Positions 1,058 through 64,000 of a stretch of DNA of 64,000 nt are shown here, in pieces. Source of the DNA: Clostridia bacterium (lineage in GTDB: Bacteria > Bacillota > Clostridia > Christensenellales > Borkfalkiaceae). The stretch is from the NCBI GenBank assembly GCA_028720205.1, contig JAQYLE010000017.1:1-64000 (forward strand). The letters are read 5' to 3'. The translations under genes and the position numbers were made by a program. Every line of letters begins with the position of its first letter. The stretch's first letter is position 1. Below the pieces are notes generated by a model. That model searched no databases, was not told the origin of the DNA, and saw only the letters and a program-made list of their open reading frames with translations.

Positions 1058-1756
1058 TTAAAGCGGCTGTTTTCTTTCTTTTCCGTTGCCGCGCGGATAT
1101 TTTTGCGGCGTATTCTTTTCTTTTTTTACCGCCGCAATCGTCCTGTTTCCGTATCCTTCCGGCAAAGAATAATCGTAAAACACGATTCCGCTCCCCCCGA
1201 GCAAAAAACATGCGTTTTTCGCCTTTTCCATTTCCTCTTTGTCCGCGCTTTTATAGGCGAAAAATTCACCGCCTTTTTTTACCAGAGGCAAGGAATACTC
1301 CAATAGCGTATTCATTTGCGCCACCGCCCGCGCTACGCCGTAATCGAATTTTTCCCGATAAAGCGCGTTCCGCGCCGCGTCTTCGGACCTCATATTACAA
1401 ATATTCATTCCTTTAAATTGCAACTTATCCACAATAAAGTTAAGAAAATCGCACTTTTTTCCAACGCTTTCAAACAAAGTAAACGATAAATCGTCGCGCA
1501 GTATTTTTAAAGGAACGGAAGGAAACCCCGCGCCGGAGCCTATTTCCGCCACGCTTTTTCCTTGTTCGAAAAAAACCGCCGTCGCCGTTGAATCGAGAAA
1601 ATGTTTATAATACACGTCTTTTTCTTCCCTGATCGCCGTCAGATTGTATTTTTCGTTGAATTCCAGAAGATACGCGCGATACGCTTCGAATTTTTCGAAA
1701 TATTCTCCTTTAATTTTGTTTAAATTTTCTTCGATTTCGATGGTTCTGTTCTTCAT
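1058..1756 (-). CDS. rsmG: 16S rRNA (guanine527-N7)-methyltransferase RsmG (GidB)
   Basis: RsmG methylates N7 of G527 in the 530 loop of 16S rRNA using S-adenosylmethionine. The 232-residue protein has the family signatures in order: LLEFNEKYNLTAI and HFLDS near the N-terminus, the SAM loop AEIGSGAGFPSVPLKI (residues ~70-85), FESVGKKCDFL, and FDYGVARAVAQ followed by KKGGEFFAYKS. The length matches the family plus a short basic tail. rsmG is a classic origin neighbour; here it faces away from dnaN across the AT-rich origin. A sigma-A promoter at 1763-1791 starts its transcript very close to the ATG. One DnaA box (1425-1433) lies within the gene. Confidence 0.95.
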   Translation of the reverse strand: MKNRTIEIEENLNKIKGEYFEKFEAYRAYLLEFNEKYNLTAIREEKDVYYKHFLDSTATAVFFEQGKSVAEIGSGAGFPSVPLKILRDDLSFTLFESVGKKCDFLNFIVDKLQFKGMNICNMRSEDAARNALYREKFDYGVARAVAQMNTLLEYSLPLVKKGGEFFAYKSADKEEMEKAKNACFLLGGSGIVFYDYSLPEGYGNRTIAAVKKEKNTPQKYPRGNGKERKQPL

Positions 1757-1791: not shown

Positions 1792-2242
1792 CGGTTTTAA
1801 CCTTTATTTCCCTTACAAATGCGTTGTGTATAAAGATTTTAACATCTTTTTACTTATCCACATTTTTTGTGGATAAGTTTTTCTTATATTATATTTATTC
1901 AATATTTCTTTTATAATTAAAAATTTATTTTTTATGTTTTTTGACTTTTTCACTTTTTCACAATTTATTTCAACTTTTTTCCACATATTTTTTCTGTTTT
2001 ATCCACAACTGAAAACGCATGGGTTTTCTTTCCTTTTCTTTCTTTTGGTATGAATATCCACATTTCCACCGTTCTTATTATTACTATTATTATCTTATTA
2101 TTTGTTCTTCTTCCCTTCAGAATAAGCGCGCCGAAAAAAACGCAGAAAAAACTTCGAAAAAAATTTTTTCCTTTTACGGACGCGCGTGTTTTACGGCAAA
2201 GTGAAAAGAAAGAGAAAATTTCTTCATATAAAATGTTTTTGC

Positions 2243-2326: not shown

Positions 2327-3427
2327 ATGAAATTCGTATGCGATTCTATCGATTTATCCGCGGCGTCTCTTACCGTGGTAAAAGCGTGCGCGACGAGGAC
2401 GTTGACGCCCGTGCTCGAATGTATCCGAATCCTGGCAAAAAACGACGAAGTAACTCTTTCCGCTTACGACGGCGAATTATCCATAGAAAAAACTATTAAA
2501 GCGGACGTGCTGGAAGAAGGAGAAACTTGCGTAAACGGAAGATTGTTTACCGATTTTATCGGTAAAATTTTTCATACGCAGATCACGCTCGGCACGGAAG
2601 AAAAAGGGTTGGAAATAAGATACGACGATTCCCGCTCGTTTTTACAGACGCTTCCCGCCGAAGATTTTCCTCTTTTAAGCGGCGGAGAAAACGTAGGCTG
2701 TTTCGAAGTGGAAGAGGGAAAATTTAAAAATCTTGTGGCACGCAGCGTTTTTTGTTGCGCGACGGACGATTCCCGCCCTATTTTAAAAGGGTGTCTGATG
2801 GAAACGGAAGATAAGACGTTAAAGGTTTCTTCGCTGGACGGATACAGAATGGCCACCACTCAATGCGAAATATCCGGCGGCGACGACGGAAAAAAAATAA
2901 TATGCCCTGCAAGAACGCTTTCGGAAATAGCCAGAATGCTGACGGGCGGGGATAGATTGTTGAAAATAGAATTTTCAGCAAATCAACTGCGCGTGGAAGT
3001 AGACGATACGAAATTGATTTCCCGTTTGTACGTGGGCGAATTCGTTAAAAAAGAAAATATTTTTCCGCCCGCGTTTTCTACGGAAGTCACCGTTAAAAGA
3101 GAGGAACTGATTGAAAGCGCAGAGCGCGCGTCCGTTCTGATTCGCGGAGAAAAAAACAATCTCATCATTATGGACGTGAAAAGCGGCGCGATCTACGTAA
3201 CGGCAAATTCCGAAATAGGCAACGTTGCGGAAAAGGTAAGCGCAACGCTGGAAGGAAAAGAAATACGTATCGCGATGAACGGCAAATATCTTCTGGACGC
3301 GCTGAAAGCGCTGGATGAAGAAGAGATTATTTTGTATATGAATACGCCGATTGCGCCCTTCGTATTAAAAAACAGACAAAACCAATACGGAGCATATCTT
3401 ATTTTACCTGTAAGAACTACGTCGTAA
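2327..3427 (+). CDS. dnaN: DNA polymerase III beta sliding clamp DnaN
   Basis: DnaN is the ring-shaped clamp that holds the replicative polymerase on DNA and recruits repair and regulatory proteins. The 366-residue product has the normal length and three-domain pattern. Recognisable segments include MKFVCDSIDL at the start, ATRTLTPVLECI, the SSLDGYRMATTQ region in the middle and the terminal APFVLKN...YLILPVRTT, close to the canonical LIMPMR ending. The start ATG has a strong ribosome site (GGGAGG, about 9 bases upstream). In most Bacillota dnaN follows dnaA directly; here dnaN follows the origin itself and is transcribed from its own promoter at 2243-2271. Confidence 0.97.
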   Translation: MKFVCDSIDLSAASLTVVKACATRTLTPVLECIRILAKNDEVTLSAYDGELSIEKTIKADVLEEGETCVNGRLFTDFIGKIFHTQITLGTEEKGLEIRYDDSRSFLQTLPAEDFPLLSGGENVGCFEVEEGKFKNLVARSVFCCATDDSRPILKGCLMETEDKTLKVSSLDGYRMATTQCEISGGDDGKKIICPARTLSEIARMLTGGDRLLKIEFSANQLRVEVDDTKLISRLYVGEFVKKENIFPPAFSTEVTVKREELIESAERASVLIRGEKNNLIIMDVKSGAIYVTANSEIGNVAEKVSATLEGKEIRIAMNGKYLLDALKALDEEEIILYMNTPIAPFVLKNRQNQYGAYLILPVRTTS

Positions 3428-19467: not shown

Positions 19468-19483
19468 TGTTTCACGTGAAACA
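19468..19483. promoter_or_regulatory. parS: parS site (ParB/Spo0J-binding palindrome)
   Basis: TGTTTCACGTGAAACA is a perfect 16-bp palindrome and matches the near-universal bacterial parS consensus. ParB loads here and recruits SMC for origin segregation. It lies 17 kb from the oriC at 1.9 kb and between two minus-strand genes, upstream of the 19445 start. No parA/parB genes are in the window. No second copy was noticed. Confidence 0.92.
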
Positions 19484-26683: not shown

Positions 26684-27250
26684 TTAAGCGCCGCGAAAGT
26701 TTCCGCCCGAAGAATTGCGGTTGCCGAAAATTTCCCAAAGCACGGCGGCAACCCCTTCGGAGATGATTTCCGCCATGGTATATACGAGATGAAAGCGCGT
26801 GGAGTTTAAAAGCCCGAAGTTGTTCACAGATTTTTCCGCCACGATGCCCATTACCGAAATATCGCCGATTGCGCCGAGTTTTTTGTTTGCGCCCGCGCCG
26901 GGAAGCAACGCGCCGTCGTTGATTTTAATCAATCCGATATCGCCGCTGCCGCCTACCGCGGCGTCGACGGCAAGAATTTTTCTGCCTTCGTGCGTGTCTT
27001 TTAAAAAAGCGCGCAGATAGGGAATTTCTTTGGCGGTGACGGGCGCGGCAAGCGTACCGTAAATGAATACGGGCAAACCGCGGGTTTTGTATTGCAGCAT
27101 CGATCCGCATACGGGACCGAGCGAGTCGCCGATGGCAAGATCGCTGCCTACGCATACGATTACGGGCATTTCGTCGCCCGTAAATTTCTGTAACGCCGCG
27201 CTGATTCCGTCGGCGGCGAGTTTGTTGAAAATGTGAAACGCATATTCCAT
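26684..27250 (-). CDS. yyaC: Sporulation protein YyaC (DUF1256)
   Basis: YyaC is a conserved spore-former protein with an HybD-like, probably peptidase fold; its substrate is unknown. The 188-residue product shows the family blocks VCVGSDLAIGDSLGPVCGS (residues ~31-49), FIYGTLAAPVTA, LAVDAAVGGSGDIGLI, PGAGANKKLGAIGDISVMG (~116-134) and LNSTRFHLVYTMAE. It is a reliable marker of endospore-forming ancestry. Single gene on the minus strand. Confidence 0.9.
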   Translation of the reverse strand: MEYAFHIFNKLAADGISAALQKFTGDEMPVIVCVGSDLAIGDSLGPVCGSMLQYKTRGLPVFIYGTLAAPVTAKEIPYLRAFLKDTHEGRKILAVDAAVGGSGDIGLIKINDGALLPGAGANKKLGAIGDISVMGIVAEKSVNNFGLLNSTRFHLVYTMAEIISEGVAAVLWEIFGNRNSSGGNFRGA

Positions 27251-27636: not shown

Positions 27637-28197
27637 ATGTACTCGGCTTTGCTTGCCGGTTTCGGGCAATATACGATAGACGTGGTATGCGTGGCGCTGA
27701 TTCTGATTTTTACGATAGTCGGCGCGCGCAAAGGCGCGATACGTTCGTTGATCGGGCTTTGTTCTACGTTGTTTTCGCTTTTTGCGGCGTACTACCTCGC
27801 GGTGCCCGTTGCCAACTTGCTGAACGGTTGGTTTTCGGTGTTTGAAAAAGGCGGCGAAACGCTCTGGATAGCCGTATCGGGTATCGCGGCGTTCATTCTT
27901 TGCAAAATCGTGCTCGACCTTATAGGGAAACTGCTTACGAAACTTGCCGAAAGCGTAAAAGCGGTAGGCGCATTGAATACGCTCCTCGGCGCGGTTATCG
28001 GGTTTATAAAGGCGGCGATTCTTATCTGCGCGGCGCTTGCCGTTTTGTCGTTGTTGCCCGACGGCGCGTCGTTTGTCGTTAAGGCGCAGGAGGCGATTGA
28101 CAATACGTTCTTCGTGCACGTTATACGCGACCACAACCCGCTGCTTTCGTGGATGAGTAAAATATTGGAACGCGCGAAAGAGTCTATCAATATTTAA
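27637..28197 (+). CDS. CvpA family membrane protein
   Basis: A 186-residue, four-helix membrane protein of the CvpA (colicin V production) family. The N-terminal segment DVVCVALILIFTIVGARKG leads into the typical G-x-x-x-G/R turn, and the third region LNTLLGAVIGFIKAAIL (residues ~110-127) is the conserved CvpA C-terminal helix. Strong ribosome site GGAAAGGAGGAG. In other bacteria CvpA influences envelope homeostasis and secretion. A double-length relative is at 13323-14555. It starts the long run of plus-strand genes that continues to the window end. Confidence 0.85.
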   Translation: MYSALLAGFGQYTIDVVCVALILIFTIVGARKGAIRSLIGLCSTLFSLFAAYYLAVPVANLLNGWFSVFEKGGETLWIAVSGIAAFILCKIVLDLIGKLLTKLAESVKAVGALNTLLGAVIGFIKAAILICAALAVLSLLPDGASFVVKAQEAIDNTFFVHVIRDHNPLLSWMSKILERAKESINI

Positions 28198-28236: not shown

Positions 28237-28755
28237 ATGCTTATAAGAAAAGCCGAAAAACGCGACGTTCCTTCGTTGTTGCGTCTTTTAAAACAGGTGC
28301 TTGAATTGCATGCGAAACTGCGCCCCGATATCTTTATTTCCGGTACGACGAAATATACGCGCGAAGAAGTGGAACGTATTCTTTTAAACCCCGAAACGCC
28401 TGTGTTCGTGGCTGTGGCGACGGGCGACAACGGAGAAAACGGAGAAAGCGGCGAAAGAGGGGACGACCGCGGCGACGGGGTTATGGGATATATGTTCTGC
28501 ATACTGCGTCGGCAGCCGTTTTCCGCCAACATGCGCGATTTTAAAACGCTGTTTATCGACGATTTATGCGTGGACGAAACCTGCCGCGGAAAACGCGTGG
28601 GGCAGGCGCTTTACGAGTTTGCTCTGCAATACGCCGGAAAACAGGGTTGCTACAACGTTACCCTGAACGTGTGGGCGGGCAACGACGGCGCGCGCGCCTT
28701 TTACGAAAAAATGGGCATGCGCGTGCAGGAAACCCGAATGGAAAAGATTTTGTAA
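28237..28755 (+). CDS. GNAT-family N-acetyltransferase
   Basis: A 172-residue GCN5-type acetyltransferase. N-terminal MLIRKAEKRDVPSLLRLL matches the family start, and motif A with the acetyl-CoA loop is IDDLCVDETCRGKRVGQALY (Q/R-x-x-G-x-G/A; here CRGKRVGQ). NVWAGNDGARAFYEKMGM is motif B. A polar insertion (GDNGENGESGERGDDRGDG, residues ~69-87) separates two strands and is probably a disordered loop. The substrate is unknown. Likely co-transcribed with cvpA (39-base gap, GAAAGGAG site). Confidence 0.87.
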   Translation: MLIRKAEKRDVPSLLRLLKQVLELHAKLRPDIFISGTTKYTREEVERILLNPETPVFVAVATGDNGENGESGERGDDRGDGVMGYMFCILRRQPFSANMRDFKTLFIDDLCVDETCRGKRVGQALYEFALQYAGKQGCYNVTLNVWAGNDGARAFYEKMGMRVQETRMEKIL

Positions 28756-28786
28756 CGGCAAAGAGCGATTATTGAAAAAAATTCTT

Positions 28787-28934
28787 TGTGGATAACTTTA
28801 CCTGAAATTTTCTTCAAAACAACAGAGTTATCCACATTTTTGCCGAAAAAACGACCAAAAGTTTGTTTTTTGCAGGAAATTTTTTACAAAAAGGCGGAAA
28901 CTTATCCACATTTATTAACGTGCGTTGTGGATAA
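28787..28934. promoter_or_regulatory. Second cluster of four perfect DnaA boxes
   Basis: Perfect 9-mers lie at 28787-28795 (-), 28828-28836 (+), 28902-28910 (+) and 28926-28934 (-), all exactly TTATCCACA in sense or antisense, within 148 bases. The surrounding sequence (28756-29084, 329 bases) has no convincing gene and is A/T-rich between the boxes (for example AAATTTTTTACAAAAAG). It could be a DnaA-titration site, a DnaA-controlled promoter for the next gene or an origin module. Confidence 0.8.
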
Positions 28935-29084
28935 CGGGTTTATGGAGAACGGACAAAGAGAAAGAATGCGGAAACGACGGGGAAAAGGTTAGAAACGCGA
29001 AAGAAAACGACGGTAAAAAGATCGGAAGCGAATGCAAACGAAGGAAGAAACAGGTAATAAAAGCGAAAAAGCGAGGGAAAAAGA

Positions 29085-29477
29085 GTGAAAAAGAGCGAGG
29101 AAAAGAGCGAGGAAAAGAACGTTGCCTGGGCGGCGGCGGAATGTGCTTTTGCCGTGCCTTTAAAATACGGGTTCGATTACGAGTATACATACGATAAGGG
29201 TTCCGATTCTTCCTGCGTGTATATACACCGTTTTAAAAAGGCGGGAAATTATTTCGATCTTCGCGTGCTTTCCGGCGCGGAAACTGTTACCGTGGTGGCG
29301 TACGTCGACGGAGAATACCGTTTTCCCGACGTAAGAAAAAAATACAAAAAGGCGTGGCGGGCGTTTCGCGTTTCGCATTTGTTTAAAAAGCCTACGCAAA
29401 ACGAAGTCTGGCGGTTTTACGCCGAAATTTTAGAAGAAGAGGCGAAAAGCGGCGCGTTGTTCGGTATTTTGCTGTAA
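29085..29477 (+). CDS. Small protein, unknown
   Basis: A 130-residue protein with no recognised family. After a short charged N-terminus it has alternating hydrophobic strands (FAVPLKYGFDYEYTY, CVYIHRFKKAGNYFDLRVL, ETVTVVAYVDGEYRF), suggesting a small beta-rich fold, and a helical C-terminus rich in aromatic and acidic residues. No signal peptide or membrane helix. The GTG at 29085 lacks a strong ribosome site, so the start is uncertain. It lies 150 bases downstream of the DnaA-box cluster and is closed by the terminator at 29541-29574. Confidence 0.6.
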   Translation: MKKSEEKSEEKNVAWAAAECAFAVPLKYGFDYEYTYDKGSDSSCVYIHRFKKAGNYFDLRVLSGAETVTVVAYVDGEYRFPDVRKKYKKAWRAFRVSHLFKKPTQNEVWRFYAEILEEEAKSGALFGILL

Positions 29478-40045: not shown

Positions 40046-40065
40046 GCGAAAGCAAATAGAAGAAA

Positions 40066-40146
40066 AGCCGATATAAGTTCCCGGAAGTGGTGGGAACGTC
40101 TCTACCGCAGTGCCCGAAACATAACTGCGACTATCGAGCGCTTTAT
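40066..40146 (+). ncRNA. Guanine-type purine riboswitch aptamer
   Basis: The fold and conserved bases match the purine riboswitch. P1 is CGATA / TATCG (40069-40073, 40132-40136), P2 GTTCCC / GGGAAC (40077-40082, 40092-40097), loop L2 GGAAGTGGT, junction GTCTCTACC (40098-40106), P3 GCAGT / ACTGC (40107-40111, 40124-40128) and J3/1 GACT. The specificity base equivalent to position 74 is C (40131), as in guanine rather than adenine riboswitches. One junction base equivalent to U48 is C. Together with the terminator at 40188-40223 it would turn off xpt and the nucleoside transporter when guanine or hypoxanthine is plentiful. Confidence 0.88.
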
Positions 40147-40187
40147 TCCTTGTTTCCGTTGCGGAAAAAGGAGTAAAAGCGGTATTG

Positions 40188-40338: not shown

Positions 40339-40911
40339 ATGAAGGCGTTGGAAGAAAAAATTTCGCAGGAAGGACAAGTTCTTCCCGGAAACGTATTGAA
40401 GGTGGGTTCGTTTCTCAATCAGCAGGTAGACTCGGTGTTTTTAAAGGAAATGGCGAAAGAGACGCGGCGGCTGTTTTCGGGCGAAGGAATTACCAAAATA
40501 CTTACGGTGGAGGCTTCCGGCATAGCGTTTGCCACGGCGGTGGCAATGGAATTTTCCGTGCCCATGGTATTTGCCAAAAAGCACCCATCGGCGAACGTTT
40601 CCGGCGAGCAATACAGCGCTTCGGTATTTTCGTATACCCATAAAAAAACGTATAACGTTGCCGTTACCAAAGAATATCTTACAAGTAAAGATACCGTTCT
40701 GATCACCGACGATTTTCTGGCGGGCGGCAACGCTTTGAAAGGACTCATCGATATCGCCAACCAGGCGGGCGCGAAAATCGCGGGGTGTTGCGCGGAGATC
40801 GAAAAAGGATTTCAGGGCGGCGGCGACGAGTTGCGCGCCCGGGGATATCGGGTAGAGTCTTTGGCAATCATCGAAAGTATGAACGAAAAAGGCATTACGT
40901 TCAGAAAATAA
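40339..40911 (+). CDS. xpt: Xanthine phosphoribosyltransferase
   Basis: Salvages xanthine (and often guanine) to the nucleotide with PRPP. The 190-residue protein has KILTVEASGIAFATAVAMEF (residues ~54-73) and the PRPP-binding VLITDDFLAGGNALKGL (~115-131), both characteristic of Xpt. The start MKALEEKISQEGQVLPGNVLKV matches family members. AGAGGG lies ~15 bases upstream, rather far. It heads the operon after the guanine riboswitch and terminator, and is followed by a nucleoside-type ABC uptake system. Confidence 0.95.
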   Translation: MKALEEKISQEGQVLPGNVLKVGSFLNQQVDSVFLKEMAKETRRLFSGEGITKILTVEASGIAFATAVAMEFSVPMVFAKKHPSANVSGEQYSASVFSYTHKKTYNVAVTKEYLTSKDTVLITDDFLAGGNALKGLIDIANQAGAKIAGCCAEIEKGFQGGGDELRARGYRVESLAIIESMNEKGITFRK

Positions 40912-53980: not shown

Positions 53981-54920
53981 AAAAGAGGGTAACCACGAAG
54001 AAGAAATACGGATACTTAAAAAATTTTCCGCCGGATTGCCCGCGGTGCAATGGACTAAAGAGGTCGCCGCGGACTGTATCGACAACTTTTTGCTGGAAAA
54101 CGGCAGGTTGCCCACGGTGACGGAACTTGCGCAGAATAAAGAACTGCCGTTTCATACGAGTTTTAAATATCTGTTCGGCATGCCCGCGCGCAAGTGGCTG
54201 GAAAAGCGCTATTCTTCCACGCGCGATATGCCCGTTGATTCGTCAGCCTCGCCGGTTTTACCTGTTTCTCCTGCCTCGCCTGTTTCGTCTGTTTTGCCCA
54301 AAACTTCGCGAAAACGGGCGCTTTTATCGGCGTATCGGGTGCTTGACGGCGAGGCGCGGGAGCGGATTAAAGATATGCTGGACGAATACCCGATTACGCA
54401 GTGGAACGATAAAAATATGGCTGACTGTATAGTGACGTATTATGAAAAATATCGGCGCGTTCCCGCGGAAGAGGAAATGAAACGCTCGGACGAGTTGCCT
54501 TATATCGGCGTATTTAAATACCGCTGGAAGACCACCTATCTGCAATGGCTGAAAGAACGCTTGCCCGTCTTGTACCGGCTGTATTGCGACGAGCGCACGC
54601 AACAAAGGGATTACGCGGGCGAATTCGTGCGCGAGTATAAAAGGATTCGCCCGAAGAACGAGGCGGATTTCAACAGAAAAAGAAACAGGGCGCTTTGTTG
54701 CGGTACGGAGCGCGTCAAGCGCGCTTTGAACGTTACCCGCTGGGCGGAACTTTTAAGCGCTTGTCGTCTTGAAGTTTGCAACGGCGCGGAGGAACGGGCG
54801 GAAATCGAGCGCGACAAAATCAAATCGGTGCGTATCATCGCGGTGGACTGCGGCGAAAATATCTTTTTCAGGCAATACGCCGCGGAAGAAGAACGGCGGT
54901 TTTTCGAGGCGGAGGGATAA
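53913..54920 (+). CDS. Repeat protein resembling homing-endonuclease-associated repeats, unknown function
   Basis: A 335-residue basic protein that begins inside the truncated sigG frame. It contains three related ~55-residue units: unit 1 (~47-106, QWTKEVAADCIDNFLLENGR then LPFHTSFKYLFGM), unit 2 (~155-215, QWNDKNMADCIVTYYEKYRR then LPYIGVFKYRWKT), and a more divergent unit 3 (~230-280, FVREYKRIRP then ERVKRALNVTRWAELL). The W...C...LP-x(4-6)-FKY/W pattern recalls repeats that accompany homing endonucleases and act as small DNA-binding units. No nuclease motif is seen. A serine/proline linker (SPVLPVSPASPVSSVLP) separates units 1 and 2. ATG at 53913 with GGAGG upstream. Confidence 0.65.
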   Translation: MNTKETLPLTRKAAVFQAITLLEKEGNHEEEIRILKKFSAGLPAVQWTKEVAADCIDNFLLENGRLPTVTELAQNKELPFHTSFKYLFGMPARKWLEKRYSSTRDMPVDSSASPVLPVSPASPVSSVLPKTSRKRALLSAYRVLDGEARERIKDMLDEYPITQWNDKNMADCIVTYYEKYRRVPAEEEMKRSDELPYIGVFKYRWKTTYLQWLKERLPVLYRLYCDERTQQRDYAGEFVREYKRIRPKNEADFNRKRNRALCCGTERVKRALNVTRWAELLSACRLEVCNGAEERAEIERDKIKSVRIIAVDCGENIFFRQYAAEEERRFFEAEG

Positions 54921-54966
54921 AAAGCGACGGTTGCGTAGGAAAGCGGCGTTAAAAAACGAAAAAAAT

Positions 54967-54997
54967 CGGGTATTCTTAGCGGAATATCCGTTTTTTA
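54967..54997 (+). terminator. Terminator after the repeat-protein gene
   Basis: CGGGTATTC pairs with GAATATCCG (one G-U) around a short loop and is followed by TTTTTTATT. It closes the chromosome-like part before the polysaccharide locus; the rest of the 334-base gap is AT-rich with the next promoter. Confidence 0.8.
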
Positions 54998-55157
54998 TTG
55001 CCGCGCACACGGTTTTTCGTGAAAAAATATGAAACAATACTGAACGATTATAAAATTTTTATGGTATTTTTCGGCGCGGTTTTTCTGTATTTTTCAGCAA
55101 AGGCAAATTTTTACTTAAAAAAATTATAGAAAAAATCTGCAATATAAACGGAAACGG

Positions 55158-55186
55158 TTGAATTTTCTATAATATTATGATATAAT
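55158..55186 (+). promoter_or_regulatory. Sigma-A promoter of the polysaccharide locus
   Basis: TTGAAT, 17 bases, TATAAT with TGA before the -10, in an AT-rich stretch. Confidence 0.75.
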
Positions 55187-55254
55187 ATTAATTATTTACC
55201 AAGTTTTGCAAACGAAGGTTGCGGCTGTTTTGTTATATTAACGGAGAAACGGAT

Positions 55255-56346
55255 ATGAAAAAACAATGCAAAAGAAACGAAAGCAGAATAAATTCTTCTA
55301 ATTTCGCCGCGCAACAAAGCCGTAGTATACCCGAAGAACAAGAAAAAAAAGCGCAACGTTTCTTTGCCGATGAGGAGAGCGTTGCACTTTCTTTTTCCGC
55401 CACCGCGAATCAATCGTTCGGATACAACAAAGCCGAAGAAGAGATTTATAAGCTGACTTTTTTTCAGAAATGTTATCGCGTAATAAAAGCCGGTTTAGAT
55501 TTTTTGATAGCGCTGCTTGCGCTAGTTGTTTTGTCTCCGCTGTTTTTGATTACGGCGATAGCGATAAAAATCGACTCGAAAGGTCCCGTGTTTTTTGTAC
55601 AGAAACGGATAGGAAGGGGCGGAAAAGAATTTAACTGCATTAAATTCAGAAGTATGTCGGTGGAGGCAAAGCACGACGTAGCCGGTTACGAGTATGCCGA
55701 AGCAGATTCATATATTACAAAAGTCGGGCACGTCATACGAAAATTGTCGATAGACGAACTGCCGCAACTGTTTTGCTTGCTGACGTTTAAAATGAGTTTG
55801 ATAGGATACCGCCCTTCGCAAAGCAACGAACACGAATTGAACGAGGCGCGTGAAAAATATGATTTGTATCAGATACGTCCGGGACTTTCCGGTTGGGCGC
55901 AGGTAAACGGAAGAGACGTTCTGGCTGCCCATCCCAAGAAAAAAGCAGAATACGACGCATATTATCTGCGGCATTTTTCGTTGTGGCTGGATATAAAAAT
56001 ATTTTTTATGACGATAGCCAAGGTATTTAAAAGCGAAGATATCGAAGAAGGCGTGATAGAGCCGACAGGCGATAAATTTGCGGAAAATACAAGCACGCTA
56101 ACTGTGGCGGAAGAAGTGGCGGCGGCAGATGGAAGGTTAGTAGAGGAAATCGCCAAAAAAGAGGCGGAGATTTTGCAGGAAGTCGCCGCGGCGGAAGATA
56201 TCGCTACAAAAACCGTTGCGGCAGAGAGCGTTGCGGAAGAAACCGTTTTGGAGGAGAGCGCCGTAGCAGAAAGTGTTGCCGTTCCCGTAGCGTCGCTTGT
56301 CGAAAAAGCAGAATCTCCCGCATCTATTAAAAGCGTAAATGGATAA
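55255..56346 (+). CDS. Initiating sugar transferase (undecaprenyl-phosphate glycosyl-1-phosphate type)
   Basis: Transfers the first sugar-1-phosphate to undecaprenyl phosphate, starting repeat-unit assembly at the inner membrane face. The Bac_transf domain (residues ~70-265) has one membrane helix (GLDFLIALLALVVLSPLFLI), then KGPVFFVQKRIGRGGKEFN, IKFRSM, KLSIDELPQLF, GYRPSQ and RPGLSGWAQVNGRD. A ~95-residue A/E/V-rich tail with repeated V-A-E/E-E-S words follows and is not part of the family. ATG at 55255 has a GGAGA site; an upstream TTG frame is less likely. The first gene of the polymer locus, still with the chromosomal base composition. Confidence 0.92.
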   Translation: MKKQCKRNESRINSSNFAAQQSRSIPEEQEKKAQRFFADEESVALSFSATANQSFGYNKAEEEIYKLTFFQKCYRVIKAGLDFLIALLALVVLSPLFLITAIAIKIDSKGPVFFVQKRIGRGGKEFNCIKFRSMSVEAKHDVAGYEYAEADSYITKVGHVIRKLSIDELPQLFCLLTFKMSLIGYRPSQSNEHELNEAREKYDLYQIRPGLSGWAQVNGRDVLAAHPKKKAEYDAYYLRHFSLWLDIKIFFMTIAKVFKSEDIEEGVIEPTGDKFAENTSTLTVAEEVAAADGRLVEEIAKKEAEILQEVAAAEDIATKTVAAESVAEETVLEESAVAESVAVPVASLVEKAESPASIKSVNG

Positions 56347-57439
56347 AAAAATGAAATACTTATTAATTTGTAATTCGTCACAAAATGTGATTACATTCCG
56401 AAAATCTTTAATTTTACATTTGTTGGAAGCGGGTAATGAAGTAGTTGTAATCGCCAGTGATAATGATTACAGGACGGAGACAGAAGCTTTGGGCGTTACT
56501 ATGTACGTATGCAATGCTAATAACCGTTCAATAAGTATAGCAAAAACGTTAAGTTATAAACGATCCGTTCGACAAGTGATAAAGAAAGAAAAACCGGACG
56601 TTGTTTTTACATTTCAAGTAAAACCTAATACGTTTGGGGTTTTTGCCGCTAAAAAAGAAAAAATCAAAACTATTTTTTGTATGGTGGAGGGAGCAGGAGA
56701 CGTATTTATTAAAAACGGACTGAAATGGAAGATTATACGTTTCTTTGTCTGCAAACTTTATAAAAAAGCGTTTAAAAGCGCAAATAAAGTTTTTTTCCTG
56801 AATAATGACGATAAGGCGGAATTTATTGCGCGAAAGCTTGTTAAAGAAAATCAATGCGTTGTTATTCCGGGAATAGGCGTTGATACAAAATATTTTGCTT
56901 TTAAACCAATTAAAAATCATAAAACATTTTTGATGGTCGCTCGGATGCTGAAAACAAAAGGAGTTTTGGAATACTGTAAAGCGGCGCGGATCGTGAAACA
57001 AAAATATCCTGAAGCCGTATTTAATTATCTGGGTGCCGAAGGGGATTTAAAAATTGCCGATATACAGGAATTTATCGATGACGGCAGCATTAACTATTTG
57101 GGCACGACAAAAGACGTCCGACCGTATATAGAAGATTCGCTACTACTACTACTACTGTCTAGTTACCGCGAAGGACTTCCTATGTCTATCATGGAAGCCG
57201 AATCTGTTGGGCGCGGAATTATTACAAGCAATAATATTGGGTGTAAAGACACTGTGATTGACGGATTTAATGGTTTTTTAATTGAACGCGGAGATTACAA
57301 TGCGATGGCGGAAAAAGTTATTTGGTGTATTGAACATCCAACGGAAGCCGAGCTGTTTGGTGTAAACAGCAGAAAATTAGTTGAAGATAAATTTGACGAA
57401 AATAAGGTTAATGAAGGAATTTTAAAAATTATATCATGA
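56339..57439 (+). CDS. GT4-family glycosyltransferase with a CTA tract
   Basis: A 366-residue GT-B enzyme. The C-terminal donor domain has VVIPGIGVDTKYF, FLMVARMLKTKGVLEY and SYREGLPMSIMEAESVGRGI (residues ~278-297), which contains the E-x7-E motif of GT4. The N-terminal domain (MKYLLICNSSQNVITFRKS) is the acceptor side. Donor and acceptor are unknown. A pure trinucleotide run, CTA x5 then CTG (about 57139-57156), encodes a hexa-leucine just before this motif. Overlaps the sugar transferase stop by 8 bases. From here the sequence is clearly more AT-rich. Confidence 0.88.
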   Translation: MDKKMKYLLICNSSQNVITFRKSLILHLLEAGNEVVVIASDNDYRTETEALGVTMYVCNANNRSISIAKTLSYKRSVRQVIKKEKPDVVFTFQVKPNTFGVFAAKKEKIKTIFCMVEGAGDVFIKNGLKWKIIRFFVCKLYKKAFKSANKVFFLNNDDKAEFIARKLVKENQCVVIPGIGVDTKYFAFKPIKNHKTFLMVARMLKTKGVLEYCKAARIVKQKYPEAVFNYLGAEGDLKIADIQEFIDDGSINYLGTTKDVRPYIEDSLLLLLLSSYREGLPMSIMEAESVGRGIITSNNIGCKDTVIDGFNGFLIERGDYNAMAEKVIWCIEHPTEAELFGVNSRKLVEDKFDENKVNEGILKIIS

Positions 57440-58482
57440 AAATTTTACACGTATTAAATTCCGATAGATTTTCCGGAGCTGAAAATGTTGTCTGTCAGAT
57501 TATAGAAATGTTTAAAAGTGATACCAACATTGAAATGGTTTATTGCAGCCCGGACGGTTCGATAAGAGATATGCTGAAAGAACGTGAAATTGTTTTTGCG
57601 CCGGTTTCAAAAATGACTAAAAAAGAATTAAAACGCGTAATTATCGAGCAAAAGCCGGATATTATTCATGCGCACGATATGCGTGCGAGCTTCGTTGCGG
57701 CAAGGTCGTGCGGAAAAATTACGCTTATTTCGCATATTCACAATAATAATTTTGACTCGCGAGGAATATCGGCAAAATCTATCGCTTTTTTGTATGCGGC
57801 AAAAAAATCGGAACATATTTTTTGGGTTTCTAAAAGTTCATATGAAGGATATGTGTTTCATGGGTTTTTCAAGAAAAAAAGCTCGGTGTTATATAATGTT
57901 ATAAATATTGAAGTCTTATATGAAAAAATGCGACAAGATGAAAAAAAATATGATTATGATGTGATATATGTAGGCAGATTGACCTACCCAAAAAATCCAC
58001 AACGACTGATGAATGTTTTTCGCTTGGTTGTTGAGAAAATACCGAATGTAAAGATTGCCGTTGTTGGTACGGGTGATTTGGAAAACGACGCAAAAAAACT
58101 CGCAGACTCATATGGATTACTTGATAATGTGCATTTTTTAGGTTTTCAGTCGAATCCGCTTAAAATATTGCATGACAGTAAAGTAATGGTTATGGCCTCT
58201 CGTTGGGAAGGAACTCCGATGTGTGCTCTTGAGACTATGGCATTAGGTGTGCCTATAGTATCAACACCTGTTGATGGGTTAAAAGATCTTATTGTTAATG
58301 ACGAAAACGGATTTTTAAGCGATGAGGATGAAGTGATGGCAGATAAAATTATTTCTTATATTAATACACCGACAAAGCGTAAAGAAATGTCTGATAAGCA
58401 AATGTTTTTTGCGAAAGAATGGAATGATATAAATAAGTATAAGCAGAAACTCTTTAATGTTTATAGGGAAATAAAAAAATGA
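57436..58482 (+). CDS. GT4-family glycosyltransferase
   Basis: A 348-residue GT-B enzyme. N-terminal MKILHVLNSDRFSGAENVV has the GAE-type loop common in GT4, and HAHDMRAS follows (~75-82). The donor site is in YVGRLTYPKNPQRLMNVF and SRWEGTPMCALETMALGVPIV (residues ~255-275). No membrane helix. Overlaps the previous gene by 4 bases (ATGA). Its codon use (many TTT, AAA and ATT) is unlike the upstream housekeeping genes. Confidence 0.88.
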   Translation: MKILHVLNSDRFSGAENVVCQIIEMFKSDTNIEMVYCSPDGSIRDMLKEREIVFAPVSKMTKKELKRVIIEQKPDIIHAHDMRASFVAARSCGKITLISHIHNNNFDSRGISAKSIAFLYAAKKSEHIFWVSKSSYEGYVFHGFFKKKSSVLYNVINIEVLYEKMRQDEKKYDYDVIYVGRLTYPKNPQRLMNVFRLVVEKIPNVKIAVVGTGDLENDAKKLADSYGLLDNVHFLGFQSNPLKILHDSKVMVMASRWEGTPMCALETMALGVPIVSTPVDGLKDLIVNDENGFLSDEDEVMADKIISYINTPTKRKEMSDKQMFFAKEWNDINKYKQKLFNVYREIKK

Positions 58483-59552
58483 AACTGGCTTTTTACATTA
58501 ATACTCTTTCTGGAGGAGGAGCGGAAAGAGTTGTGGCAAATTTAGCTAATTTTCTTTCGCAAGATAACGAGACTATTGTTATTAATTCTTTTAAAACGGA
58601 GAATGAGTATCCCCTAAACAATTTGATAAAACATATATATCTAGATAATAATGATTACTCGTCTCGGTTAAAAAAGAATGTTTATAGGATAAAAAATCTT
58701 AGAAAGATATTAAAAAAAGAAAAAGTAGACGTTTTGATTTCGTTTATGGCGGAACCCAATTTTAGGTCGTGTTTAGCATGTATAGGTCTAAAAACAAAGC
58801 TGATAGTTTCGGTAAGAAATGATCCAACTAAAGAATATTCAGGTATTTTGGGTAAAATAACCGGAAAAGTTTTAATGCCAACAGCAGATGGCTGTGTTTT
58901 TCAAACTGAAGATGCAAAAAGATGGTTTCCTAAAAAGTTGCAAAAAAAATCTACAATTATTTATAATGCGGTAAATAAAACATTTTTTTCCTCCGAGTAT
59001 AACGGGGAACGCAGAAATATTGTTACATGTGGTAGATTAACAGAACAAAAGAACCATAAATTGCTTATAGATTCTTTTAATATGATAAAAGAGGATTGCT
59101 CGGATAATTTATTAATTTACGGGGATGGTCCGTTAAAAGATAAATTGAAGAATTATTTGTCAGATTTAAAATTAAACGATAGAATTTTCTTAATGGGACG
59201 AACAGAAAATGTTATTACATCTATCAAAGATGCGAGAATATTTGTTTTATCTTCTAATTATGAAGGAATGCCTAATGCTTTAATGGAGGCAATGGCTTTG
59301 GGAATTCCATGTATATCGACGGATTGTCCTTGTGGCGGACCTAGAATGATAATAAACAACAAGGAGAATGGCTTACTGGTAAATTGTAACAATGTAGACG
59401 ATTTATCATCTGCGCTCAAGTTATTATTAGCTGATGAAAATCTATCTAAAACAATAGGCAAAAACGCACGTGAAGCAGCAACTAGAATGTTTGCATCAGA
59501 CAAAATTGATTTACAATGGAAAAATTATATTGAAGGTGTTTTTTATGAATGA
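58479..59552 (+). CDS. GT4-family glycosyltransferase
   Basis: A 357-residue GT-B enzyme. MKLAFYINTLSGGGAERVVA is the typical start with the GGGAERV loop; FVLSSNYEGMPNALMEAMAL and GIPCISTDCPCGGPRMIIN form the donor-binding end, close to the EpsF/WbnH-like branch. Substrates cannot be assigned. Overlaps the preceding gene by 4 bases and the next by 8, so the three GT genes are translationally coupled. Confidence 0.9.
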   Translation: MKLAFYINTLSGGGAERVVANLANFLSQDNETIVINSFKTENEYPLNNLIKHIYLDNNDYSSRLKKNVYRIKNLRKILKKEKVDVLISFMAEPNFRSCLACIGLKTKLIVSVRNDPTKEYSGILGKITGKVLMPTADGCVFQTEDAKRWFPKKLQKKSTIIYNAVNKTFFSSEYNGERRNIVTCGRLTEQKNHKLLIDSFNMIKEDCSDNLLIYGDGPLKDKLKNYLSDLKLNDRIFLMGRTENVITSIKDARIFVLSSNYEGMPNALMEAMALGIPCISTDCPCGGPRMIINNKENGLLVNCNNVDDLSSALKLLLADENLSKTIGKNAREAATRMFASDKIDLQWKNYIEGVFYE

Positions 59553-60924
59553 ATTTTTAATTTGTTCTTGCGGAATCATTTTATGTATGATCGGGGTATT
59601 CTTTCTTAGAAAAAGGGATAAAAGGATATTGTTATCAATAGATAATGGGTTTGTTGCGCTTTATATAGTATTTTTTGGGGTTATTTTTCCTATAAATTAT
59701 GTTTACGCCTCTAATTATGTTAAAGATAATGAATTGATTTTATCAATTGATACTTTAGATATTTTAATATATTATGAAGTTATTTTAATTGTGTTAATTA
59801 CAGTTAAGTCTTTTTTTACTATGTTGTGTCCCCAAAAGGAAATATTCAATTTTGTTCCTAGTTCTATAGACTTAGGTAATAATGAAAAAACATTCTATAA
59901 TACAGGACTTATTGTTTTTTTAATAGGGATTGTTAGTGATTTTCTATACTTGAAAGCTTATGGAGGATATTTTAACTATTTGAAATATTCCAATGCCATT
60001 AGAAGCGGGGTAATAACTGTACAAAATCCATTTAGTTTTTTAATTGCTTTTAGAGGTTGCATCAATATAAGTTCGTATGTTTTTTTTGCAGTGTACTTAA
60101 ATAGTCGAAAAGGACAACGTTTATTTCCCTTGATTCTTTTTCTAGGAACATGTATATATTCAATGATGATATTATATTCCAATAAGGGCCGAGTCGCTTT
60201 TGCTTTTTATTTTTTAATATTATTATTTATTTTTTTGTTTTCGAAAAAGAAAGTGCGCTTTTTAACTTTTAAAATGTTTTTTCATATTATCTTAATAATT
60301 TTATTTTTTATAATCGGATTAGGGTTGATAGGACATATATTAGGAAGAAATTCGTCAAATGACTTATTTTCTTTAATTATTGAAGAAATATCGTTTGTTT
60401 ATAATAACTTTTTTAGATTAATAAAAACGGAATCCGTGGAGTACAGATATTTTATTGATTGTATAAATTGGCCAATATATTTATTGCCTTCAAGTATTTG
60501 GAGTACTCGATTAGACATAAAAACAGTTTCGGACTTAATGACGATTTTGTCGTCAGGTGCAGTCAAAGGGGGAATTGGCGCTAGCGGCTCAATTGTTTAT
60601 GGGGAAACCCCTGCGGATTTAATATCTGTTTGTTATGCTCAATTAGGCTTTTTAGGTGTCCCTTTTTTTGCTTTGGCCTGGGCTTGGATAGGCAAACAAC
60701 TGTTAAAGTTTTGCAGTAGAGAAATGGAGAGCAAAGGAGCATATATATTTTATAAAGTATATGCTACATTATATTTTTTCTTTAATTCTATTTTGTATGG
60801 TGATCCTAAACATATTATTCAATCAATGTTTCCTTTTCTAGTTTTTATAATTATTTATCATGTGATGAAACCTAAACAAACATATAATAAAAAGGTTTTA
60901 TTTTACAATCAAAAAAATAGTTAG
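59545..60924 (+). CDS. Wzy-like polysaccharide polymerase (O-antigen polymerase type)
   Basis: A 459-residue membrane protein with about 10-12 hydrophobic helices and no close motif, as usual for Wzy. Evidence is the membrane pattern, a large extracytoplasmic loop (~ residues 280-370) and the location between glycosyltransferases and a flippase. Wzy joins undecaprenol-linked repeat units outside the membrane. ATG at 59545 has GAAGGTG; a longer frame from 59470 runs into the previous gene. It is the most AT-rich gene of the window (60241-60300 has 12 G/C in 60 bases). Confidence 0.8.
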   Translation: MNEFLICSCGIILCMIGVFFLRKRDKRILLSIDNGFVALYIVFFGVIFPINYVYASNYVKDNELILSIDTLDILIYYEVILIVLITVKSFFTMLCPQKEIFNFVPSSIDLGNNEKTFYNTGLIVFLIGIVSDFLYLKAYGGYFNYLKYSNAIRSGVITVQNPFSFLIAFRGCINISSYVFFAVYLNSRKGQRLFPLILFLGTCIYSMMILYSNKGRVAFAFYFLILLFIFLFSKKKVRFLTFKMFFHIILIILFFIIGLGLIGHILGRNSSNDLFSLIIEEISFVYNNFFRLIKTESVEYRYFIDCINWPIYLLPSSIWSTRLDIKTVSDLMTILSSGAVKGGIGASGSIVYGETPADLISVCYAQLGFLGVPFFALAWAWIGKQLLKFCSREMESKGAYIFYKVYATLYFFFNSILYGDPKHIIQSMFPFLVFIIIYHVMKPKQTYNKKVLFYNQKNS

Positions 60925-60950
60925 AAATTAATTAAAGGAGAAGACCAATT

Positions 60951-61886
60951 ATGAATTTAAAAAGAATGGTATACTTAGGTAAAAAGTATATAAGTGACTC
61001 TAATGATAGATTTTTGATAAATAGCTATTTAGGATTATACAATCATATGTTGGATGAAGAGTACCTTAAACGTAAATTTAAAGGTGTATTGGGTAAAGAA
61101 CTCAATCTTGATAATCCACAAACATTTAACGAAAAGATTCAATGGCTCAAATTGTATGACAGGCGTCCTGAATACACGATGATGGTGGACAAGTACCTGG
61201 TAAGAGATTATATAGCCGAAAAAATCGGAGAAGAATATCTTATCCCTTTGCTCGGAGTATGGGACAATCCCGATGAGATTGATTTTGACACGTTGCCAAA
61301 TCAATTCGTGCTGAAATGCAACCACAATTCAGGTCTTGGTATGTGCATATGCAAGGACAAATCAAAACTAGACATAAAAAAGGTAAAAAATCAACTTCGC
61401 AAAGGGCTAAAGCAGGATTATTATCTGACCGGCAGAGAATGGCCGTATAAAGATGTGCCTCGTAAGATTATATGTGAGCAGTATATTTCGGACAAAAATA
61501 CGGATTCCGAGCTTACCGATTATAAATTCTTTTGCTTTAACGGAGTTGCTGACAGCGTAATGCTGTGCCTTGACAGAAATACAGGCGACACCAAATTTTA
61601 TTTTTTTGACAAGCAATGGAATCTTCGCAGATATAATATTCGTGGCAAGAATGCTCCCGCAAACTTTACGTTGCCAAAGCCGAATAATATTGATAGAATG
61701 TTTGATGTTGCTGAATGTTTGGCTAAGGATTTACCGTTTGCAAGAATAGATCTGTATAATTCAGATGGACATATTTACTTTGGAGAAATAACTTTTTTCC
61801 CGGACAGCGGGTTTGACGCCAATTTGTTGCCGGAAACGGATAAGTATTTCGGCGGTTTGATTGATTTGAGAGGAATACGAAAATGA
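60951..61886 (+). CDS. TupA-like ATP-grasp protein
   Basis: A 311-residue enzyme of the TupA-like ATP-grasp family, named for the teichuronopeptide biosynthesis protein of alkaliphilic Bacillus. Features: TFNEKIQWLKLYDRRPEYTM and DKYLVRDYIAEKIGEEYLIP in the N-terminal half, the lysine-rich VLKCNHNSGLG (residues ~120-130), KIICEQYI and the metal-binding end DLPFARIDLYNSDGHIYFGE-ITFFPDSGF. ATP-grasp enzymes make amide or peptide bonds, so an amino-acid attachment to the polymer is plausible. Ribosome site AAAGGAGAAGACC. Overlaps the next gene by 4 bases. Confidence 0.85.
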   Translation: MNLKRMVYLGKKYISDSNDRFLINSYLGLYNHMLDEEYLKRKFKGVLGKELNLDNPQTFNEKIQWLKLYDRRPEYTMMVDKYLVRDYIAEKIGEEYLIPLLGVWDNPDEIDFDTLPNQFVLKCNHNSGLGMCICKDKSKLDIKKVKNQLRKGLKQDYYLTGREWPYKDVPRKIICEQYISDKNTDSELTDYKFFCFNGVADSVMLCLDRNTGDTKFYFFDKQWNLRRYNIRGKNAPANFTLPKPNNIDRMFDVAECLAKDLPFARIDLYNSDGHIYFGEITFFPDSGFDANLLPETDKYFGGLIDLRGIRK

Positions 61887-62839
61887 AAACAGTAGGATTT
61901 CCAATAAGTCACAAGGAAAACGAAAAACGTCGTGCATTGATCCCATATGATATAAAGCAAATAAGTGCTCCGGAGGCGTTATTCTTTGAAAGTGGATATG
62001 GTGAGGTAATCGGATTTGATGACGGTGATTATGAAATTATGGGCGCACATATATGCAGTCGCGAAGAAGTATTAAAAAAAGATATTATATGCGATCCTAA
62101 AATCGGAGATGCCGAATATCTTGACTCACTGTATGAACAGACAATTTTCGGATGGATTCATGCTGTGCAAAATCGTGATATTACCGATAAAATAATAAAT
62201 GGTAAGTTAACGGCATTCGCATGGGAAGACATGTTTGAAAAGGGACGTCACATTTTTTGGCGAAATAATGAACTTGCCGGAGAGGCGGCAATTATGCATG
62301 CTTCCCAATGCTATGGCAGGATGCCATATGAAACCAAAGTGGCTGTTATTGGCCGCGGAAACACTGCAAGAGGCGCTATACGTGTTTTGAATATGCTTGG
62401 TGCAGATGTTATGCAGTATGATAGAAAAACAGAATCATTATTAAGAGATGAGATAGGAAAATACGACGTTTTAGTTAATTGTGTCTTGTGGGACACAACG
62501 CGTTCGGATCACATTATTTATCGTAATGATTTGAAGCGTATGAAACGAAACGCAATGATTGTTGATGTAAGTTGTGACAGAAACGGAGGAATTGAGACAA
62601 GCGTTCCTACAACATTTGAATCACCTACATATTTTGTAGATGGCATTATGCATTATGCAGTAGATCACACCCCGTCTTTGTTTTATAAGACGTTTACGGT
62701 TGACAATTCAGCAACTATTGCTCCATATATAGATATGCTTATAAATGATAAACCTAACGATGTTTTGTTAAACTCAATTGCCGTAAAGGACGGAATTGTA
62801 GTTAATAATAAAATCAATCAATTTCAAAAACGAACATAA
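61883..62839 (+). CDS. N5-(carboxyethyl)ornithine synthase-like opine enzyme
   Basis: A 318-residue NAD(P)-dependent enzyme of the alanine dehydrogenase/PNT-related family. The start MKTVGFPISHKENEKRRALIP is nearly diagnostic of N5-(L-1-carboxyethyl)-L-ornithine synthase, and the nucleotide loop is VAVIGRGNTARGAIRVL (residues ~152-168). Such enzymes condense pyruvate reductively with the side-chain amine of ornithine or lysine to make opine-type amino acids. In this operon, coupled to the TupA-like gene, the product probably becomes a substituent of the polysaccharide; this is inference. Codon use resembles the TupA-like gene. Confidence 0.85.
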   Translation: MKTVGFPISHKENEKRRALIPYDIKQISAPEALFFESGYGEVIGFDDGDYEIMGAHICSREEVLKKDIICDPKIGDAEYLDSLYEQTIFGWIHAVQNRDITDKIINGKLTAFAWEDMFEKGRHIFWRNNELAGEAAIMHASQCYGRMPYETKVAVIGRGNTARGAIRVLNMLGADVMQYDRKTESLLRDEIGKYDVLVNCVLWDTTRSDHIIYRNDLKRMKRNAMIVDVSCDRNGGIETSVPTTFESPTYFVDGIMHYAVDHTPSLFYKTFTVDNSATIAPYIDMLINDKPNDVLLNSIAVKDGIVVNNKINQFQKRT

Positions 62840-62932
62840 GTAATAAAAACATGAAAGCATTATTTTTGGTTACATTGTAACTGCATATGCAAAAATACTG
62901 TTAAAGAATTAAGATAATCAAGAGGTAAACGA

Positions 62933-62983
62933 ATGAAAATATTGATCGGGGCGGATTTTGTTTCGACGCAAAGGAATATTTGA
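62933..62983 (+). pseudogene. Remnant of a CapA-like gene start
   Basis: A ribosome site (AGAGG) and ATG are followed by 16 codons, MKILIGADFVSTQRNI, then TGA. The sequence resembles the first residues of CapA/PgsA-type metallophosphoesterases found in capsule loci (MKILIAADLVPT...). Only ~50 bases remain before the next gene; the rest is lost. A second tiny frame at 62851 (MKALFLVTL, stop) is similarly vestigial. The assignment is tentative because so few residues survive. Confidence 0.4.
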
Positions 62984-63010
62984 ACCAATTTTGAAAGTTT
63001 GTGTGTAAAA

Positions 63011-64000
63011 TATGGAAAAACAAGGTAAAAGATTAGTTTTTAATACCATTTCATCGTTAGGGTATCAAATAGTAGCTATTGTTTGCGGATTAATTCTGCC
63101 ACGGCTTATTTTACAAAGCTTTGGTTCTAATGTTAACGGATTAGTTAATTCGATTGCTCAATTTTTGGGTATTATATCTTTTTTGGATTTGGGCGTGGGA
63201 GCGGTAATTCAATCGTCATTGTATAAACCGCTTGCGGAAAAAGATAATGAAGGTATAAGCAAAATAATAGTTTCAGGCGGAAAGTTTTTTCGTAGAATAG
63301 CATATATCCTGTCGGGTTATATTGTCATATTGACTATTGTGTATCCGTTTATTAACGACAGCGATTTTGATTTTTTGTTTACTGCTTTACTGATTCTTTC
63401 AATGGGAATCAGTTCATTTGCACAATATTATTTTGGTGTTGTAGATAGATTATTATTAAGTGCAGACCAAAGAGGGTATATTCAATATAATGCTCAGACA
63501 ATTACTTTAATTTTAAATACGATAGCATGTGTGTTTCTTATTAAATTAGGCGCTTCTATTCAAATTGTAAAATTAGTCACTTCTTTGATATTTCTATTAA
63601 GACCAATTGTTTTAAGAATTTACGTTAATAAGCATTATTCAATTAATAGAAAAATCAAATACGAAGGGGAGCCGATAAAACAAAAATGGAATGGAATGGC
63701 GCAACATATTGCCGCCGTTGTTCTAGACGGAACAGACACTATTGTTTTAACTGTTTTTTCATCTCTTGCGAATGTTTCTATTTATTCTGTATATCATTTA
63801 GTTGTTAATAGCGTCAAAACCCTTTTTACTTCTTTGACAAACGGAATTCATTCTCTCATGGGCGAATTATGGGCAAAGCAAGACGTGGCAAGGCTTCGAG
63901 AATTTTTCAGGAAAGTTCAGTGGATGTTGCATACAGGGACTATTTTTATCTTTGGTTGCACAGTGCTTTTGATTGTGCCGTTCGTTCAAGTTTACACGAA
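63011..64000 (+). CDS. Wzx-like polysaccharide flippase (partial, runs off right edge)
   Basis: The reading frame from ATG 63011 stays open to the window end (330 codons). It encodes a polytopic protein of the MATE/MOP oligosaccharide flippase superfamily: RLVFNTISSLGYQIVAIVCG, ILPRLILQSFGSNVNGLVNS and ISFLDLGVGAVIQSSLYKPL are the typical first two helices and loop of the RfbX/Wzx branch. Membrane segments alternate through residue ~330. Its job would be to flip the undecaprenol-linked repeat unit made by the preceding genes. No clear ribosome site precedes the ATG. Confidence 0.88.

Follow-up and report, generated by a model that had tools for sequence, protein, structure and literature searches.

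Why should a bacterial chromosome carry a second dense cluster of perfect DnaA boxes some 27 kb from the one beside dnaN? The question is raised by a 64-kb stretch of clostridial DNA (hereafter the window; positions 1–64000 of contig C17 of the source genome, G000), for which the initial annotation had offered four readings: a split origin, a moved origin, a datA/DARS-like locus, or DnaA control of an adjacent small gene. To our knowledge, DnaA-capture sites outside the origin have been described in a few model bacteria only, and their importance in Gram-positive bacteria is debated.

Two clusters of exact DnaA boxes in a 1.94-Mb genome

A motif search recovered four exact TTATCCACA DnaA boxes at 28787–28934 (148 bp) in the order - + + -, confirming the positions and strands first annotated (Table 1). 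The gap that holds them is bounded by a GNAT acetyltransferase gene and a small ORF and is free of genes, as had been claimed; a search of this gap for known RNA families gave no match. The statement that all genes to the right lie on the plus strand is true of the large ORFs, and strands are mixed at 7–27 kb as described. The window as a whole contains 11 exact boxes against 0.22 expected from shuffled sequence, and even at the window's own box rate the expected count for a group of four within 148 bp is about 3e-5. Genome-wide (1.94 Mb in 82 contigs) there are 30 exact boxes, which form just two clusters, one in the rsmG–dnaN gap (1854–2007) and the one at 28787–28934.

Two other features of the window may be recorded here. 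A purine riboswitch aptamer (Rfam RF00167) lies at 40049–40153, upstream of an ORF at 40339. Within 54000–64000 the G+C content falls from about 50% to 28–39% over roughly the last 9 kb, which is possibly an acquired stretch.

Table 1. Coordinates of features in the window that bear on the two box clusters.
Feature	Position	Strand	Remark
rsmG	1058–1756	-	Left flank of first box cluster
oriC candidate, rsmG–dnaN gap	1854–2062		Exact boxes 1854+, 1868-, 1999+; one-mismatch boxes 1977, 2054
DnaA-trio-like run TTATTATTACTATTATTA	2075–2092	+	Next to oriC box 2054
dnaN	2327–3427	+	Right flank of first cluster; followed by rnpA, yidD, yidC, jag
parS, perfect, TGTTTCACGTGAAACA	19468–19483		Between oriC and element; sole exact parS in assembly
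yyaC-like gene (DUF1256)	26684–27250	-	Positional marker of the element genus-wide
cvpA-like gene (Colicin V production family)	27637–28197	+	Usual immediate neighbour of the element
GNAT acetyltransferase	28237–28755	+	Between cvpA and element here; not at that position in sister species G001
DnaA box 1, exact	28787–28795	-	Motif match
DnaA box 2, exact	28828–28836	+	41 bp from box 1; kept in G001
DnaA box 3, exact	28902–28910	+	One-mismatch box at the same spacing in G001
DnaA box 4, exact	28926–28934	-	Kept in G001
Small gene, no family assigned	29085–29477	+	Adjoins the element in 3 genomes only

A conserved element beside yyaC and cvpA

We mapped yyaC, dnaN, cvpA, jag and rsmG together with exact boxes across the genus; the named comparison genomes are metagenome assemblies (Clostridia MAGs, several of them from the ruminant gut, and one Christensenella sp. 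MAG). Comparison with these relatives identified the cluster as one copy of a conserved non-coding element. Between two and eight exact boxes adjoin the yyaC–cvpA gene pair in about 50 of 57 genus genomes, and at least two lie near it in 49, the source genome included; in G040 a copy of one module of the element (described below) is found about 11 kb beyond the locus. No clear absence of the element was seen where the locus is assembled; in the remaining genomes the contig stops next to yyaC or no yyaC was identified.

The usual order is rsmG (leftward), oriC, dnaN (rightward), rnpA, yidD, yidC, jag (rightward), yyaC (leftward), cvpA (rightward) and then the box group. The distance from dnaN to the element, where both could be measured in relatives, is 6.6–15 kb with a median of 7.6 kb, compared with 27 kb in the window. 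Here jag and yyaC are separated by a block containing PSP1-like, holB-like, spoVT, tRNA synthetase and other genes; most relatives have the PSP1-like and holB-like genes on the rsmG side. A rearrangement thus accounts for the 27-kb distance as well as for the mixture of strands at 7–27 kb. The whole yyaC–cvpA–element block lies on the opposite side of dnaN in four loci (L108, L118, L142 and L152), and in two others (L116 and L144) the yyaC–cvpA pair is inverted while the boxes stay put. A cluster is also found beside yyaC in the sister genus g14, whereas in genera g16 and g15 it is weak or absent, and the element is therefore not universally needed. Four g14 loci (L234, L236, L238 and L240) carry a further conserved cluster of 3–6 exact boxes, which in L236 is just downstream of dnaK–dnaJ and, to judge from ORF sizes, occupies the same place in the other three; L242 also has a box cluster.

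The element is about 450 bp long and occurs as a whole unit in both orientations relative to its neighbours. Box pairs recur within it at spacings of 41, 55/56 and 83/84 bp, the first of these, which separates boxes 1 and 2 of the window, being the commonest in the genus. A search of the 57 genomes for direct box pairs spaced 40–42 bp returned 32 matches in 27 genomes, all on the contigs and near the coordinates of the yyaC–cvpA locus, and the same search with a reversed-control pair returned none. Two modules can be discerned, about 260 bp apart and in divergent orientation: module A consists of two boxes around a ACAAACGTTC-like core and module B of two boxes around an inverted GTGGACAAC. 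In an alignment of 26 units the mean pairwise identity is about 52%, with box columns about 90–99% conserved. The window carries a short form, in which three boxes match those of G001 at the same spacing, one of them with a mismatch, and the flanks have diverged. An order-wide search for the paired-box modules gave matches outside the genus that bear no resemblance to the genus modules. Some matches in one other family are triple boxes in tandem; in family f24, most of the loci L219–L225 contain a tandem run of three exact DnaA boxes spaced about 20 bp apart.

A probable origin at rsmG–dnaN

Could the element itself initiate replication, as an active origin or a second one? The AT-richness of the gap is in keeping with this idea, as is the number of exact boxes, which is higher in the element than upstream of dnaN in 29 of 32 genomes (mean 4.8 versus 1.8). 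Cumulative GC skew, the check named in the initial annotation, points elsewhere. Its minimum falls at or near rsmG–dnaN and never at the cluster: in four of the six relatives whose long contigs were tested (G036, G032, G041 and G008) it is no more than about 1 kb from the start of dnaN, towards rsmG, and in the other two (G033 and G004) it is past dnaN on the side opposite the element. G036 and G032, in which the element is itself on the rsmG side, give the strongest indication. In the window, whose contig includes only 2 kb of left flank, the switch to positive skew comes at about 2 kb rather than at 28.8 kb, and the average from 2 to 28 kb is slightly positive. Beyond the window, at about 68–75 kb of the same contig, the skew changes sign: positive values give way to negative ones at about 72 kb, and these persist as far as about 144 kb, a pattern suggestive of a misjoin in the contig or of a recent inversion.

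In C. difficile a DnaA-trio has been reported beside the unwinding site (PMC7561715), and the run TTATTATTACTATTATTA next to the oriC candidate in the window is similar. Under a strict definition (a YTA run of at least four, relaxed trios being left out) none of 48 elements has a trio-like run, and upstream of dnaN such runs were seen in 8 of 45 loci and in the window; their lack upstream of dnaN in the other genomes does not amount to the absence of an unwinding site. The element has neither the skew minimum nor, by this definition, the trio or unwinding element of an oriC. A moved origin is rejected on the skew, a moved or second origin is unlikely given the skew and trio results, and we consider an active origin at the element extremely improbable.

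The same data bear on the suggestion of a split origin, in which the element would be the far half, a box-rich and trio-less oriC1 that loops onto the unwinding region at rsmG–dnaN and was left behind when dnaA moved. The clostridial oriC1 is indeed box-rich and trio-less, with an oriC2 by dnaN that bears the trio (PMC7561715), and the two sites here match that arrangement. The element is also origin-proximal on whichever side of dnaN it lies, and the dnaN-upstream region of several genomes is poor in exact boxes. However, the two parts of known split origins are up to about 2 kb apart (PMC4285127), compared with 6.6–15 kb in the relatives and 27 kb here; the element is not within about 2 kb of an unwinding site, no dnaA gene intervenes between the sites, and genera g16 and g15 have only a weak second cluster or none. 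What stands of this proposal is the likeness to a trio-less oriC1 and what tells against it is the distance of 6.6–27 kb, leaving a weak possibility that we regard as doubtful, though it is the chief alternative to the explanation favoured below.

The dnaA gene itself is not at this origin. In the source genome it is on another contig (C6:53416–53919, locus L012), and dnaA and dnaN are on different contigs in every genus genome in which both were mapped. In other genera of the family, dnaA was not found in loci extending about 10–20 kb around dnaN; the dnaA–dnaN pair, judged by coordinates, is adjacent in several other families of the order. An exact DnaA box also lies within the rsmG coding sequence (1425–1433) and is kept at about 364 bp from the match end in most genus genomes, a conservation that may reflect either coding constraint or function.

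A further possibility is that the site serves something other than control of initiation, such as chromosome organisation with a nearby parS, and that DnaA binding is secondary. Besides the perfect parS of the window, near-perfect parS sites are found about 1.5–3 kb from the element in G041 and G032. None was found inside the element, though, nor adjoining it in the other contigs searched, and the conserved part of the element consists mainly of DnaA boxes, which makes this reading very improbable.

No conserved downstream gene

The remaining suggestion was that DnaA bound at this site regulates transcription of a neighbouring gene, namely the small gene at 29085 in the window, or ftsH or gerC in relatives. 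The element does precede the small gene by 151 bp, and in about 9–12 genomes (roughly a quarter of 49) it is upstream of ftsH. Homologues of the small gene are present in 50 of 57 genomes, but of the 30 such loci inspected the boxes adjoin it only in G000, G001 and G055, and no sigma-70-like promoter was found at 28600–29200. Convergent 3′ ends flank the element in about 33 of 49 genomes, most commonly those of cvpA and gerC (26 genomes), and the element occurs in both orientations. The conserved downstream gene and constant orientation expected of a DnaA-regulated promoter are therefore both lacking. Most homologues of the small gene have no adjoining element, its promoter is rejected as the conserved role, and regulation of any adjacent gene by DnaA appears highly improbable as the explanation of the element.

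Spo0A-box cores within the element

The Spo0A-box core of B. subtilis is TG[TA]CGAA (PMC4285127). In an unbiased count of words with the DnaA boxes masked, TTGTCGAA was present in 13 of 49 elements against 1.1 expected, and the module A core was also recovered. The 22.7 kb of elements contain 36 copies of TGTCGAA (1.58 per kb), compared with a density of 0.116 per kb across nearby long contigs totalling 856 kb, an enrichment of about 13.6-fold in counts drawn from genomes that are not phylogenetically independent. The density of TGTCGAA is 0.117 per kb in AT-rich windows and at background level (0.106 per kb) in the 1.5 kb upstream of dnaN, the peak being confined to the 1 kb centred on the element. 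For the longer TTTGTCGAA there are 17 occurrences (0.75 versus 0.027 per kb). When both forms of the core are combined the densities are 1.72 and 0.40 per kb, with nearly all of the excess due to TGTCGAA; the other form, TGACGAA, appears not to be enriched.

TGTCGAA is present in 27 of 49 elements, and two positions for it are visible in the 26-unit alignment; neither the window's own copy nor the g14 copies at yyaC contain it. For those copies that do, the embedded cores suggest a link to sporulation, a reading that would not extend to the copy in the window. The SpoVT-like gene in the window and the gerC-like gene that adjoins the element in many relatives fit with spore formers. An approximate query with the C-terminus of Spo0A found nothing convincing in 2.7 Mb of loci, a set that consists mostly of origin regions and is hence uninformative on this point.

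Discussion

The cluster at 28.8 kb is best explained as a conserved cis-acting DnaA-capture element, near the origin but separate from it, a reading to which we give a probability of about 0.58. Across the genomes compared, the array is conserved and origin-proximal, has a fixed internal layout in most of the genus, is indifferent to its orientation, to promoters and to the genes beside it, and shows no sign of being the origin. Its probable role is that of a control site at which the initiator DnaA is captured, not that of a second origin, and almost every relative in the genus has kept the element.

DnaA-box clusters outside oriC are of an already known kind. In E. coli, datA has been proposed to remove DnaA and so to act against early re-initiation. 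The present element shares with datA that it is a non-coding cluster of boxes outside oriC in a host whose dnaA is not beside oriC; datA needs IHF and acts via hydrolysis of DnaA-ATP, and the element is likened to it by description. Okumura et al. are said to have described, in 2012, DnaA-box clusters (DBCs) outside oriC in B. subtilis. Like these, the element groups several boxes within a few hundred base pairs in a non-coding gap outside the origin, 6.6–27 kb away, and the B. subtilis clusters are of high affinity, with sites defined in vitro (PMC4447404). B. subtilis likewise has one of its strongest sites close to the origin, downstream of jag and upstream of trmE. Unlike the DBCs, there is here one main element of fixed layout per genome, conserved genus-wide, which lies beside yyaC–cvpA and not trmE, contains Spo0A-box cores in many copies, and accompanies a dnaA gene that is away from oriC. 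According to two reports (PMC5295017, PMC13220808), deletion of six such clusters in B. subtilis leads to early initiation, and the clusters are proposed to restrain re-initiation by lowering free DnaA. It is in the form closest to these oriC-proximal clusters that the datA/DARS-like locus of the initial annotation survives. Compared with the oriC1 of C. difficile (PMC7561715), which is likewise a box-rich, trio-less partner of a trio-bearing site by dnaN, the element is not beside dnaA and is 6.6–27 kb from dnaN.

By analogy, we infer that DnaA would load cooperatively on the boxes and that the element, doubled soon after initiation, would remove or inactivate free DnaA. The lowered level of free DnaA would then help to prevent early re-initiation at rsmG–dnaN. 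More speculatively, in over half of the genus Spo0A may join or displace DnaA at the embedded core, tying the site to the decision to sporulate. In B. subtilis, according to Castilla-Llorente 2006 and Boonstra 2013 (cited in PMC4285127), DnaA boxes and Spo0A cores share one stretch inside oriC, whereas the composite found here is outside it. A bolder version, in which dnaA left the origin in this family of gut Clostridia and a separate conserved DnaA/Spo0A composite 7–27 kb away became the switch that joins initiation to sporulation, as B. subtilis does inside oriC, is conceivable from these motifs but on balance unlikely.

As far as the literature searched shows, the genus-wide fixed layout, the yyaC–cvpA marker, an origin without dnaA and the Spo0A-box cores are new. 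An element of fixed layout throughout an uncultured genus whose dnaA lies away from the origin offers a natural comparative system for the question of whether capture sites matter in Gram-positive bacteria, and the Spo0A-box cores, if bound, would make it a testable junction, outside oriC, between the control of replication and that of sporulation.
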